Positions 17,574 to 58,281 of a DNA stretch of 64,000 bases are shown piece after piece. The notes under the pieces are model-generated. The model searched no databases. It worked only from the letters and a program-made list of their open reading frames with translations, and was not told the DNA's origin. Within the stretch, counting starts at the first letter, position 1. Each line of letters starts with the position of its first letter. The stretch is taken from the NCBI RefSeq assembly GCF_904846215.1, contig NZ_CAJGZK010000002.1, forward strand, positions 186,001 through 250,000, read 5' to 3'. The position numbers and the translations under genes were made by a program. The stretch comes from Psychrobacter glacincola. GTDB taxonomy: Bacteria; Pseudomonadota; Gammaproteobacteria; Pseudomonadales; Moraxellaceae.

Positions 17574-17711
17574 TATAGTCAAAACACTCTAAAAACGCTA
17601 CGGTATTGCTGGTACAAATTTTTTGCAGCCTCTGTCTGCATGGGCACAGCAAGCAAGAAAAATTGATACCAGCAGTACATCATGTGTCGATATTACTTTT
17701 CACTGACTATA
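17574..17711 (+). repeat. Palindromic intergenic repeat, copy A
   Basis: This 138-bp element starts TATAGTCA and ends TGACTATA. Internal arms GCTGGTA...AATTTTTT and AAAAATT...TACCAGC face each other around a core GCAGCCTCTGTCTGC. It lies in the ntrB-ntrC gap, beginning 7 bp after the ntrB stop codon. Sister copies are at 19885, 34866, 42248, 46350 and 58144, with a diverged one at 20032. Confidence 0.9.
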
Positions 17712-17744
17712 TTTTCACCCTCTCATGCTTATTAGGCTAAATAC

Positions 17745-19484
17745 ATGACTCAGTATAATGACACCCAACACCTTACAAGCAATGAGCAAATGCCAATGGG
17801 CACAGTCAATAAAAATCCTGATAATGAGCCTGCCACTTTATGGCTCATTGATGATGATGCAACGCTACGACTGGTACTTGCAGATACTTTTGAAGACGCC
17901 GGATTGACGGTTATCAGCTTTACCCAAGCACAAGCCGCATGGACACGCCTTAATGATATTCTGCAAGTGTCAGAGTCAGCCGAATTATTACCTGATGTGA
18001 TATTGACGGACATTCGTATGCCGATGATGGATGGTCTATCCTTTAGTGATTGGGTACACAAGCACTTTCCTAAGCTGCCGATTGTCATTATGACAGCGCA
18101 TTCAGATCTCACTTCTGCCATTAGTAGCTATCAGACAGGCGCATTTGAATATCTACCAAAGCCATTTGACTTGGACGATGCGGTTGCAACGATTTATAAG
18201 GCCATTAATTATCAGCCGAATCTGTTGGTATCAAATGATTCAATCGAGTCTAATACGAATATACATACTGACATCGCATCCGTTGCTGCTGTGAAGTCTA
18301 CTGTTAAAGAACACCCTACTAGCAAGCCACACTCAGCCAAATCTGCTAAAAAAACCACCAAATCTGCTGAAACTAAAGCTCAAGAAAAATCTAGTACACA
18401 AGCTAATCACAATCCCAGCGGCATCATTGGTCAGTCACAAGCCATGCAAACGGTGTTTCGTGCCATTGGCAGACTCGCGCACTCACCGATTACTGTTTTA
18501 ATCACTGGTGAATCAGGCACAGGTAAAGAGCTGGTCGCTAGCGCTTTGCATCAACACTCACCGCGAAAAAATAAAACCTTTATCGCTCTGAATATGGCAG
18601 CAATTCCCCATGATTTGATTGAATCTGAGCTGTTTGGTCATGAAAAAGGCGCATTCACTGGCGCCACAACCTCACGCCAAGGTCGCTTCGAGCAAGCGGA
18701 TGGTGGTACGTTATTTTTAGATGAAATCGGTGACATGCCTTTTAGCACCCAAACGCGACTGCTACGCGTGCTGGCAAATGGTGAATTTTTTCGTGTGGGT
18801 GGACAGCAGCCGGTCAAAGTAGACGTACGTATTATTGCCGCCACCCATCAAGACTTAGAAGAATTGGTCAAACAAGGCAGATTCCGTGAGGATTTATTTT
18901 ATCGCCTTAATGTTATTCGTCTGCCATTGCCGCCTCTAAGGACACGGCGAGAGGACATACCAGCATTAACGACTTACTTTATGCAGCGCGCTGCTGAGCA
19001 GATGAATACGGCGCCAAAACATCTGCATCCGGCGGCAATGCAAATGATACTGTCTTTTGAATGGCGCGGTAATGTCCGCCAACTTGAGAATGTTTGTCTT
19101 TGGCTGACAGTGATGGCGACCGGCGACACGGTTATGATTGATGACTTGCCGCCAGAGTTGCTCGAAAATAGCGCGGCTACCTTAGAAAACCAATATCCCA
19201 TATCTTCAGAATATATGACTGAAAACCAGCATTTGCAAAGCCAACATGCTTTTGGCACTCAAAGCTGGCAGCAAGCATTAGCCGTTTGGGCTAAGAATTC
19301 ACTACAAGCGGGTGAAACCGATATTCTGCAGACGGCAACACCTGAGTTTGAACGGGTCTTGCTGACCGCAGCGCTCAATCATAGCGGTGGCAAAAAGATA
19401 GCCGCTGCCAATTTACTTGGCTGGGGACGCAATACACTGACACGTAAATTACAGCAATTAGACCTCTCATCATATCAAGAGTAA
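17745..19484 (+). CDS. ntrC: Nitrogen regulation response regulator NtrC
   Basis: Sigma-54 activator of nitrogen-responsive genes. The receiver domain (about 32-150) has the acidic pocket Asp36-38, phospho-acceptor Asp89 and Lys139. The AAA+ domain has Walker A GESGTGKE (255-262) and the sigma-54 contact loop GAFTGA (302-307). A Fis-type HTH ends the protein (GGKKIAAANLLGWGRNTLTRK). The 579 residues exceed E. coli NtrC (469); most of the excess is a Lys/Ser/Thr-rich linker at about 165-222 between receiver and AAA+ domains and a longer segment before the HTH. Confidence 0.95.
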   Translation: MTQYNDTQHLTSNEQMPMGTVNKNPDNEPATLWLIDDDATLRLVLADTFEDAGLTVISFTQAQAAWTRLNDILQVSESAELLPDVILTDIRMPMMDGLSFSDWVHKHFPKLPIVIMTAHSDLTSAISSYQTGAFEYLPKPFDLDDAVATIYKAINYQPNLLVSNDSIESNTNIHTDIASVAAVKSTVKEHPTSKPHSAKSAKKTTKSAETKAQEKSSTQANHNPSGIIGQSQAMQTVFRAIGRLAHSPITVLITGESGTGKELVASALHQHSPRKNKTFIALNMAAIPHDLIESELFGHEKGAFTGATTSRQGRFEQADGGTLFLDEIGDMPFSTQTRLLRVLANGEFFRVGGQQPVKVDVRIIAATHQDLEELVKQGRFREDLFYRLNVIRLPLPPLRTRREDIPALTTYFMQRAAEQMNTAPKHLHPAAMQMILSFEWRGNVRQLENVCLWLTVMATGDTVMIDDLPPELLENSAATLENQYPISSEYMTENQHLQSQHAFGTQSWQQALAVWAKNSLQAGETDILQTATPEFERVLLTAALNHSGGKKIAAANLLGWGRNTLTRKLQQLDLSSYQE

Positions 19485-19598
19485 GATGAGCGTTAATACA
19501 GCAGTAAAAAGTGTAAATTAAAAAGTTAGCAATATCAATTATTTACGATTTTTAAGAAAAATATTTGTTAAATAATTAAAAATAAGGGCAAATAGGAC

Positions 19599-19626
19599 TT
19601 GCCAAACCACTCGAACTCTATATAAT
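19599..19626 (+). promoter_or_regulatory. Sigma-70 promoter of tRNA-Leu
   Basis: TTGCCA (19599-19604) and a perfect TATAAT (19621-19626) are separated by 16 bp. They lie about 90 bp upstream of the tRNA gene, a spacing that allows a short processed leader. Confidence 0.8.
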
Positions 19627-19714
19627 AGCCAACCACTGAGACGCACTACCGAATCAGTTATTTATCTCAATGGCGTTTGAAATTGAACACCAAAGATGAT
19701 AAGGTAACGAAAAT

Positions 19715-19799
19715 GGGGCTGTGGCGGAATTGGTAGACGCACCAGATTTAGGTTCTGGCGCCGTAAGGTGTGAGAGTTCGAGTCTCTCCAGCCCCACCA
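19715..19799 (+). tRNA. tRNA-Leu (anticodon TAG)
   Basis: Acceptor arms GGGGCTG and CAGCCCC pair and are followed by A and an encoded CCA. The anticodon stem CCAGA/TCTGG encloses the loop TTTAGGT with anticodon TAG, reading CUN leucine codons. The long variable arm typical of class II tRNAs (Leu/Ser) and the GTTCGAGTC T-loop region are present. Confidence 0.97.
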
Positions 19800-19831
19800 T
19801 TTTCGGATAGTACATCTTAGATCAAATATTA

Positions 19832-19857
19832 AAACCTGCTTTTTAGCAGGTTTTTTT
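19832..19857 (+). terminator. Terminator after tRNA-Leu
   Basis: Stem AAACCTGCT/AGCAGGTTT (19832-19840 with 19845-19853) with a 4-nt loop and a run of T to 19857. Confidence 0.9.
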
Positions 19858-19884
19858 GTATCTGAATTTTATGCTCTATAACGA

Positions 19885-56942: not shown

Positions 56943-57054
56943 TTGCCTAGTTAATGAATGCTGTTAATAAAATTTACAAATGTTTAAAACCGCTAAAAAA
57001 CTGGCCAACGCTGCAGTTTAATGTATATAAGGCGAAAATAAACCCCAATGCAGC

Positions 57055-57083
57055 TTGCAAGCGTAGGCGCTACTGCTTATAAT
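57055..57083 (+). promoter_or_regulatory. Sigma-70 promoter of rplM-rpsI
   Basis: TTGCAA (57055-57060) and perfect TATAAT (57078-57083) are separated by 17 bp. The start site would give a leader of about 65 nt containing a GAGAG/CTCTC pair, possibly for L13 feedback; that last point is inference. Confidence 0.75.
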
Positions 57084-57155
57084 GTGCAGTCTGTTTTTTG
57101 AGAGCCCCGTTTTCCCAGCTAAACTCTCAACGAATTCTAATTTTAAGGTTTTATC

Positions 57156-57584
57156 ATGAAAACACTTAGTGCAAAACCAGCTGAAGTGACCCATGACTGG
57201 TTTGTCGTAGATGCTGACGGCAAAACTCTTGGTCGCTTAGCTACTCAAATTGCTAGTCGCTTACGTGGCAAGCATAAGACAAACTATACCCCGCACGTTG
57301 ATACTGGTGACTTTATTGTTGTCATCAATGCAGAAAAAATCGCGGTAACGGGTAAAAAAGCACAAGATAAAAAATACTATCGTCACAGTGGCTACCCAGG
57401 CGGTATTAAAGAAACCAACTTCACTAAGCTGATTGCACATAAGCCTGAAGATGTTCTACACAAAGCGGTTAAGGGTATGCTTCCTAAAGGTCCTCTTGGC
57501 TACGCGATGATCAAGAAGCTAAAACTTTATGCGGGTACCGAACATCCACATGAAGCTCAGCAACCTAAAGAACTAGACATCTAA
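57156..57584 (+). CDS. rplM: 50S ribosomal protein L13
   Basis: 142 residues with family signatures WFVVDADGKTLGRLAT, GKHKTNYTPHVDTGD and MLPKGPLGYAMIKKLKLYAG. Begins the two-gene rplM-rpsI operon; AAGG lies upstream of the ATG. Confidence 0.97.
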   Translation: MKTLSAKPAEVTHDWFVVDADGKTLGRLATQIASRLRGKHKTNYTPHVDTGDFIVVINAEKIAVTGKKAQDKKYYRHSGYPGGIKETNFTKLIAHKPEDVLHKAVKGMLPKGPLGYAMIKKLKLYAGTEHPHEAQQPKELDI

Positions 57585-57594
57585 GGATACACTT

Positions 57595-57981
57595 ATGGAA
57601 CGCAATTACGGAACTGGTCGCCGCAAGACTTCTACTGCTCGTGTCTTTTTAGCGAAAGGTACTGGTAGCATTGTTGTTAACGGCAAACCACTTGATGAGT
57701 ATTTCAGCCGCGAAACGTCGCGCATGGTTGTTCGTCAGCCTTTAGAATTACTTGACACACCTACTGCTTATGACCTTTACATCACGGTAAAAGGCGGCGG
57801 TATTAGTGGTCAAGCTGGCGCAATCCGTCACGGCATTACGCGTGCATTGATTGAGCTTGACGAATCTAACAAACCTGCGCTAAAAGCAGCTGGTTTTGTT
57901 ACTCGTGATTCACGTCAAGTTGAACGTAAGAAATTGGGTCTACGTAAAGCACGTAAACGTCCACAATTCTCAAAACGTTAA
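57595..57981 (+). CDS. rpsI: 30S ribosomal protein S9
   Basis: 128 residues: YGTGRRKTSTARVFL at the N-terminus, VKGGGISGQAGAIRHGI in the middle, and the basic tail ending KRPQFSKR that contacts the P-site tRNA. Starts 10 bp after rplM. Confidence 0.97.
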   Translation: MERNYGTGRRKTSTARVFLAKGTGSIVVNGKPLDEYFSRETSRMVVRQPLELLDTPTAYDLYITVKGGGISGQAGAIRHGITRALIELDESNKPALKAAGFVTRDSRQVERKKLGLRKARKRPQFSKR

Positions 57982-58065
57982 TCAAAGCTATCTCTTATAT
58001 TTCTGCGACTGTTGTCTTTATCTCAGAGCAACAGCTGCAGCATTAAGTATAAGAATAGATTTGCG

Positions 58066-58103
58066 AAACCTTATAAGCTGTCCGCAGCTTATAAGGTTTT
58101 TTT
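58066..58103 (+). terminator. Terminator of rplM-rpsI
   Basis: Perfect 15-bp stem (58066-58080 with 58085-58099, AAACCTTATAAGCTG and its mirror), a 4-nt loop and a T run to 58103. Confidence 0.93.
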
Positions 58104-58143
58104 ATGGCTGATGCTTTTATAAAAAACAATTTTCATATATAAC

Positions 58144-58281
58144 AGTAGTCAGGGAAAAGTAATATCGATACATCAAGTACTGCTGATATTCATTTTTCTT
58201 GCTTGCTGTGCCTACGCAGACAGAGGCTGCAAAAAATTTATACCAGCAGTACTGTAGCGTTTTTGAGATATTTTAACTATA
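58144..58281 (-). repeat. Palindromic intergenic repeat, copy F
   Basis: 138 bp in the same orientation as copy E, ending TTAACTATA; the first bases AGTAGTCA differ slightly from TATAGTCA. It lies between the rpsI terminator and the acyltransferase gene, about 100 bp before its ATG, so it may be within that gene's promoter region. Confidence 0.88.

Follow-up and report, generated by a model that had tools for sequence, protein, structure and literature searches.

The 64,000-nucleotide stretch of a Psychrobacter genome analysed here (the window) contains seven copies of a palindromic repeat of 132-149 bp, with ends TATAGT...ACTATA that are worn in some copies. The questions raised by this locus are what kind of element the repeat is, what could move it, and whether the hairpin at its centre takes part in its spread. 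An earlier note on this DNA had proposed a non-autonomous mobile repeat with TA targets, and this proposal is now supported by hundreds of further copies, by empty sites with duplication of the TA and by insertion sequences (IS) with related ends. The explanation we favour, with a probability of about 85%, is a Psychrobacter MITE family that inserts at TA. Its movement in trans is likely due to transposases of the IS630 family, and the ends of the repeat resemble the terminal repeats, of about 30 bp, of these IS.

Repeat copies in the window

All seven copies lie where they had been placed before, exactly or within a few bases (Table 1), and occur in both orientations as already described. Four copies had been counted as 138 bp long, and this length holds for those at 17574, 42248 and 46350, and for that at 58144 provided that AG, its worn left end, is taken as part of the copy. 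Window copies match in pairs at 84-96% over 136-141 bases, far beyond chance. The description of all copies as intergenic does not hold strictly, as an RNA-methyltransferase-like ORF (34986-35735) ends inside copy D and takes its final two codons and stop codon from it. The same copy has lost its right inner arm and the right part of its core, in whose place stands a portion of the left inner half in inverted form. The last two bases of copy B (TA) are also the first two bases of copy C.

Concerning the subfamilies, the earlier note had separated A-C from D-F, but the alignment groups the copies at 17574, 19885 and 34866 against those at 42248, 46350 and 58144. The ends of the copy at 20032 are of a third type, clearly distinct from these, and the copy at 19885 is mosaic, its right end being foreign.

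Table 1. Copies of the repeat in the window, with their types and surroundings.
Feature	Position	Strand	Description
Copy A	17574..17711	-	type 1b, 138 bp; 6 bp past the stop codon of a histidine-kinase-like ORF (16191-17567)
Copy B	19885..20033	+	149 bp mosaic: left end and core type 1b, right end type 6
Copy C	20032..20170	+	139 bp, with type 4 ends and a core hairpin that is shorter
Copy D	34866..34997	-	type 1b, about 132 bp, left end worn
Copy E	42248..42385	-	type 1a, 138 bp; complete and typical
Core hairpin of copy E	42275..42352	-	two arms and apical motif; core query
Copy F	46350..46487	+	type 1a, 138 bp; between convergent secB-like and adk-like genes
Copy G	58144..58281	+	type 1a, 138 bp, left TA worn; behind an rpsI-like gene

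Copy number and distribution

The genome-wide count that had been proposed gave 252 matches to a 33-base core at three or fewer mismatches, and 0 for a reversed-pattern control. Across the genus the core was found in 93 of 105 genomes, with first-look counts from 3 to 421 per Psychrobacter genome, and no core match was present in the other 12; cores were collected with a profile made from 11 of them, which strongly divergent cores would escape. In other genomes of the same family a convincing core was found in 1 of 243. A match in G307 was rejected, since it spans 26 bases and the surrounding DNA is without repeat ends. Searches of plasmid, phage and viral-contig collections returned no copy of the repeat.

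Two genomes hold 249 and 285 exact apical motifs of the core hairpin, the latter being G059, and candidate repeat places number 366 in G059 and 168 in G033. Type-1 copies of G059 (n = 27) have a mean identity of 97.2%, with seven identical pairs. As is expected of a MITE, the repeat is short, is without a transposase gene and occurs as many dispersed copies with fixed ends. In the literature searched, consisting of titles and abstract openings and mostly outside subscription journals, we found no account of it. Many intergenic hairpins and some gene ends in Psychrobacter derive from the repeat, which calls for caution in annotation.

Empty sites and target duplication

Empty orthologous sites, for which a search had also been proposed, were found in near relatives, and the comparison of filled and empty sites reveals the target-site duplication of a MITE: the TA is single when the site is empty and double when it is filled. 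The window contains six insertion sites (B and C taken as one), five of them without an element in the nearest relative, G065. Copies A and D are both absent in G065 and in G059, A at the orthologous site; no element occupies the B/C site in G065; copy F is absent in G065, and the same gap in G059 holds a copy in the opposite orientation; for copy G there is a clean empty site in G065, with the TA duplication visible and one side worn. At the sixth site, that of copy E, the orthologous region was not alignable. In G059, where 13 elements were examined, the TA duplication was resolved to the base in four, those at 14487, 33162, 54013 and 66529. Some copies are private to one among several near relatives. 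The earlier note had listed three outcomes as contrary to a mobile family, namely no further copies in the genome, no empty orthologous sites, and lengths showing that the ends are not fixed. None of them occurred, and length varies slightly between end types.

Terminal repeats and IS630 elements

A set of 91 cores scored 40 bits or more and had both flanks available; in 84 of these both ends carry five or more of the six bases of TATAGT, and in 67 all six at each end. Six end types surround one common core hairpin; type 1 is the commonest (52 of 77 typed elements), and the two ends are of the same type in 75 of the 77.

A search for IS with matching terminal repeats, the third proposed check, led to IS630-family elements of the genus, 889-967 bp long, which carry TATAGT ends. 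The examination covered 58 IS630 loci, and 41 of them showed both TATAGT-like ends at a spacing of 889-967 bp: 17 in a set of 30 loci, these 17 being selected by eye, and 24 in a set of 28. Three of the four transposase reading frames tested passed the NCBIfam IS630 cut-off, the fourth being an N-terminal piece. The terminal repeats of the MITEs match those of autonomous IS carried by the same genome or by related ones: end types 2-5 agree with IS630 ends at 16-20 of 22 variable positions, and type 1 with known IS630 ends at just 14-16 of 22, and because of this lower agreement the partner IS of type 1 is considered not found. At least 14 of the 22 positions agreed with an IS end in 152 of 168 repeat ends, against 65 of 673 TATAGT sites at large, a control that is blurred because real elements are among those sites. 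Sites at large mostly agreed at 8-10 of 22.

We also evaluated whether the number of IS630 elements predicts the number of repeats over the 105 genomes, and it does not (Spearman rho 0.15, p 0.12). There are 14 DDE_3 matches in G000. IS630 matches number three, all partial, in the repeat-rich G059, and none in G033; G086 and G106 hold 30 and 33 such matches, yet 0 and 1 exact apical motifs. IS4/IS5-type transposases (PF01609) found no support as a source at the 6 of 30 loci checked (L184-L189), where strong ends were present at four, all of other kinds, such as TAGGGCGTGTTGAACATT, ACCCCAGTTCGGG and CCCCACTCTCAACTT.

In the mechanism that we propose, an IS630 transposase would bind both ends of the repeat, cut it out and paste it at a TA. 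Every end type would have an IS630 subgroup of its own to follow, with one central hairpin retained in all types.

The core hairpin

The role of the hairpin is a separate matter. The arms covary through compensatory changes. Conservation amounts to 80% in the arms and to 95% in the apical motif, CTTGCTTGCTGT...ACAGAGGCTGC, the latter value being possibly overstated because the profile used to gather cores favours this motif. The conserved sequence at the hairpin tip could have a role of its own. The hairpin is probably maintained because it aids the spread or the tolerance of the element, for instance through a structure that it could form in single-stranded DNA or RNA. Tentatively, and with considerable doubt, the core may be a selfish or host-used module, kept nearly constant while IS630-type ends are repeatedly replaced or retuned, so that one element would ride several IS630 subgroups across the genus.

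A hairpin without function is an explanation that we place slightly short of even odds. The repeats would still be MITEs as above, with the core inherited from an ancestral MITE and the changes in the arms produced by palindrome correction, through template switching in replication, instead of by selection. Copy D looks exactly like the product of a template switch, the constancy of type within 75 of 77 elements is in line with end types that mostly stay together, and MITE transposition in general requires the ends alone. But template switching accounts for the arms and not for the conservation of the apical motif, with the reservation on the profile given above, and forms without a core seem rare, 3 being found in G059 by a single exact pattern, to which other junctions are invisible, versus the 285 exact apical motifs.

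It seems unlikely that the core functions as RNA or as a binding site for protein (an RNase processing site, a transcript end or a nucleoid-protein site), being kept for the host and only spread by transposition. The compensatory changes would agree with such a role, as would the folds predicted for five of the window copies (for one of them on both strands), which are more stable than the shuffle mean with z from -1.5 to -5.0, and the position of 28 of 89 elements between convergent genes, against 13% of intergenic TA sites (gene context being taken from a simple longest-ORF caller). A host function is harder to reconcile with the 12 of 105 genomes without a core match, the counts of 3 to 421, and the five of six window sites empty in the nearest relative; moreover no Rfam family was found on the repeats at threshold, a loose cut-off giving chance-level matches only. 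Palindromes of the REPIN/RAYT type, with a Y1 (REP-associated) tyrosine transposase as driver and GTAG/CGTC-tagged REP units as hallmarks, would share the high copy number, the mostly intergenic location and the hairpins, but are hardly credible here given the TATAGT ends, the IS630-like terminal repeats and the TA duplication, which disfavours them already.

The MITE family is abundant, and near relatives of the genome provide natural controls in the form of empty sites, so that it offers a direct test of whether the interior of a bacterial MITE is dead cargo or a participant in spread.

Comparison with known systems

The Correia elements (CREE/NEMIS) of Neisseria, to which the repeat had been likened, have main forms of about 105-155 bp, terminal TA, target duplication and a stable hairpin in the portions of the reports consulted, which also place the 155-bp form almost exclusively between genes (PMC2229807, PMC10969869). 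Compared by these descriptions, the likeness holds for architecture (size, TA ends and hairpin shape), but the host differs, as does the internal sequence according to the earlier note, and a closer precedent exists in the pneumococcus (below). MITEAba12 of Acinetobacter is a MITE from the same family, Moraxellaceae; it measures 111-114 bp and is ascribed to a resident IS that shares its ends. Its target duplications are of 9 bp and its ends of the ISAba12 type, related IS starting with GGCTTTGTTGC (PMC6382973). The Psychrobacter repeat instead combines TA with IS630.

The closer precedent is RUP of Streptococcus pneumoniae, given in the consulted parts of its descriptions as 107 bp long, without an internal gene, present in 108 intergenic copies, targeting TA and resembling at its ends a resident IS630 element, IS630-Spn1 (PMC2229807, PMC3049150). 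On that account both repeats are short and geneless, target TA and have IS630-like ends. Unlike RUP, the Psychrobacter repeat lives in an unrelated host, is found across the genus and has six end types on one core, in which the inner stem covaries and the apical motif is conserved. Given the empty sites with TA duplication, the TATAGT ends of IS630 elements and the matches of end types, we suggest that the Psychrobacter repeats are a MITE family working like RUP and IS630-Spn1.

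The repeat copies of the window

The earlier note had described seven copies of a palindromic repeat in the window, and sequence comparison and alignment confirmed all seven as real. Six of them are variants of a single 138-bp element with ends TATAGTCAG.../...ACTATA, worn in some copies, while the one at 20032 (copy C) follows the same plan with different ends. The final TA of copy B (19885), which has a left end and core of type 1, the commonest of the six types into which repeat ends were sorted, and a foreign right end, is the initial TA of copy C. Copy D (34866) has one worn end and a core remade into a near-perfect palindrome, which, judging from its sequence, is what template switching would produce. 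An RNA-methyltransferase-like ORF takes its final two codons (YQ) and its stop from this copy; its C-terminus reads ...WLLYQ-stop in the window versus ...WLL-stop, two codons earlier, in the Psychrobacter genomes G065 and G059.

Coordinates of repeats, transposases and related features (L-numbers are individual loci)
Feature	Locus	Coordinates	Remark
Copy D	window	34866-34997	
RNA-methyltransferase-like ORF	window	34986-35735	end supplied by copy D
Repeat near IS	L159	1982-2126	5 bp away
Repeat near IS	L178	1178-1324	TA common to repeat and IS
Repeat near IS	L173	2025-2167	63 bp away
Split transposase	L169	1122-1965	two overlapping ORFs: 116 aa with HTH domain, 188 aa with DDE_3
Split transposase	L159	1125-1962	two ORFs
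Core-less mini form	L153	1345-1413	
Core-less mini form	L218	250-313	
Core-less mini form	L229	10194-10262	
Core-less mini form	L233	16910-16981	
Half-element	L229	14729-14757	
Half-element	L229	16691-16720	
Core with tandem duplication	L222	16760-16840	GCTGTGATTAY inserted in apical motif
Core with tandem duplication	L222	19380-19465	GCTGTGATTAY inserted in apical motif

Copy number and distribution

The window is Psychrobacter DNA: a relative of window ORF 43174-44424 is listed from 76 distinct loci, every one of them in Psychrobacter. Further copies are abundant in the genome carrying the window (G000; 3.25 Mb, 117 contigs), where a 33-base pattern of the core, the central hairpin with its apical motif, gave 125 forward and 127 reverse matches at up to three mismatches and its reversed control none. 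The apical motif pattern with zero mismatches occurs 249 times in G000, 285 in G059, 82 in G104 and 26 in G065; a first look, a cruder count with chance places included, gave 421 candidate places in G000 and 366 in G059. The core was found in 93 of the 105 Psychrobacter genomes and, beyond the genus, matched in two of 243 genomes of the family. One of these matches, in G317, belongs to a real element, one end of which reads TATAGTCA; the other (G307), a 26-base match without element ends, was rejected as a repeat. None was found in plasmid, phage and viral collections.

Insertion at TA and genomic context

The earlier note had proposed a mobile family entering TA targets, and the empty orthologous sites agree with this. 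The two flanks of copy G (58144), joined and used as a query, matched all 105 genus genomes; in G065, 613 of 615 bases matched at 93% with the element absent. The empty site reads ...ATATATAAC-TA-TCTTGCC... and the filled one ...ATATATAAC-AG-element-TA-TTTTGCC..., in which the left TA has worn to AG. The comparison also took in stretches in synteny with the window: no copy was found in the 75 kb from G065, five of six window sites lacking the element there and the sixth (E) not being alignable, and the 70 kb from G059 hold 12 elements with the core and one without, two of which lie in gaps that also hold window copies (one with B/C, the other with F), in opposite orientation. For four of these 13 elements (14487, 33162, 54013 and 66529) a relative has an empty site resolved to the base, with one TA when empty and two when filled; the remainder have less exact alignments, ambiguous ones or no alignable site.

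Gene context was evaluated on 534 kb of DNA from G000 and G059, in which ORFs were called by a simple longest-ORF rule. None of 94 elements lies inside an ORF, versus 73% of TA sites. Among 89 elements (five near stretch ends excluded, and one in overlapping stretches counted twice), 28 lie in convergent gaps versus 13% of intergenic TA sites, and 18 in divergent gaps versus 28%. Such a placement is consistent with elements entering at TA and harmful insertions then being lost. The pneumococcal SPRITE repeat is likewise reported to be enriched near convergent 3' ends (PMC3049150).

Organization of the element and conservation of the core

Among 91 high-scoring cores for which both flanks were available, 84 have both ends; in the other seven, one end could not be recognised. 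Types could be assigned in 77 of 86 elements inspected. In 75 the two ends agree in type, the core of two of these being inverted with respect to the ends; the other two are mosaics, one of them included because it had been noticed beforehand. Core-less forms look rare: a scan of the available stretches gave five candidates, four of them real. They are 64-72 bp long, retain both ends and apparently arose by deletion of the hairpin; one exact deletion pattern found three such forms in the whole of G059, two with an identical junction at different sites. In L229, two half-elements on one strand, in reversed order and about 1.9 kb apart, were perhaps left by recombination between copies.

In an alignment of 46 distinct cores, 89.1% of cells are paired as a 27-pair hairpin requires, versus 81.7% when shuffled and 33-58% when slid, although this structure was drawn from members of the same alignment and is therefore favoured against the slid controls. 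Cells changed on both sides number 112, versus a shuffled mean of 46 (not attained in any of 500 shuffles) and 7-16 in the slid controls; the number of pairs showing such change, 13 versus 10.1, stands out less, with 24 of the 500 shuffles getting as far. The structure that RNAalifold itself derives from this alignment has 20 pairs, 11 of them changed on both sides. Covariation in the arms could come from palindrome correction without selection, a process that copy D suggests does happen in these repeats. It would not explain the conservation of the apical motif CTTGCTTGCTGT...ACAGAGGCTGC, whose majority residue averages 95% (arms 80%, tip 79%), a value that may be raised by the profile used to gather the cores, which favours this motif. 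Two cores of one locus carry a tandem duplication within it (see table).

IS630 elements as likely partners

Transposases with the DDE_3 domain (PF13358) match in 84 of the 105 genus genomes, with 14 matches in G000. Both IS ends were located at 17 of 30 loci in a first set (890-967 bp apart) and at 24 of 28 examined in a second (889-920 bp apart); their first bases are TATAGT, in most cases TATAGTCA, and about 22 more, for example GTTCAAAATAAAAGAGATACAA, come next. Of four reading frames tested, three passed the NCBIfam IS630 cut-off. In some copies the protein is divided between two ORFs, a split that in L169 and L159 may reflect programmed frameshifting; the transposase of L173 is one 278-aa ORF.

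IS elements with related terminal repeats, which the earlier note had advised looking for, do exist: over positions 9-30 the best IS match reaches 16-20 of 22 for end types 2-5 and only 14-16 of 22 for type 1 (types 1-5 scored). Scored against the 17 IS of the first set, 152 of 168 repeat ends have at least 14 of the 22 positions in common; among 673 TATAGT sites from named loci, a collection that includes real elements, 65 do so and most score 8-10. None of these 17 IS contains the core, hence the repeats did not arise from them by simple internal deletion. Three IS630 loci have a repeat with its core no more than about 65 bp from the IS, which suggests insertion beside, or clustering at, IS ends.

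Across the 105 genomes the number of IS630 does not correlate with that of repeats by first-look counts (Spearman 0.15, p 0.12), and six of 38 genomes with at least 30 candidate places are without any IS630 match. G059 has only partial IS630 matches, and its copies are homogeneous (27 copies of type 1 with a mean identity of 97.2%, 7 pairs being identical); the IS630-rich G086 and G106 (30 and 33 matches) are nearly MITE-free, with 0 and 1 exact apical motifs. The present IS complement therefore does not account for the repeat load, for which past IS since lost would be a candidate explanation.

Comparison with known systems

The tests applied identify the Psychrobacter repeat as a MITE; none of this kind was found for the genus in literature searched by title and abstract, where subscription journals are thinly covered. 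In outline (size, TA ends and hairpin shape) it resembles Correia elements, and it is not assigned to them. It probably works like RUP with IS630-Spn1 (PMC2229807). Less usual are the single conserved hairpin core beneath six end types and the genus-wide spread of the family; the core may be passive cargo or a functional component of the element.
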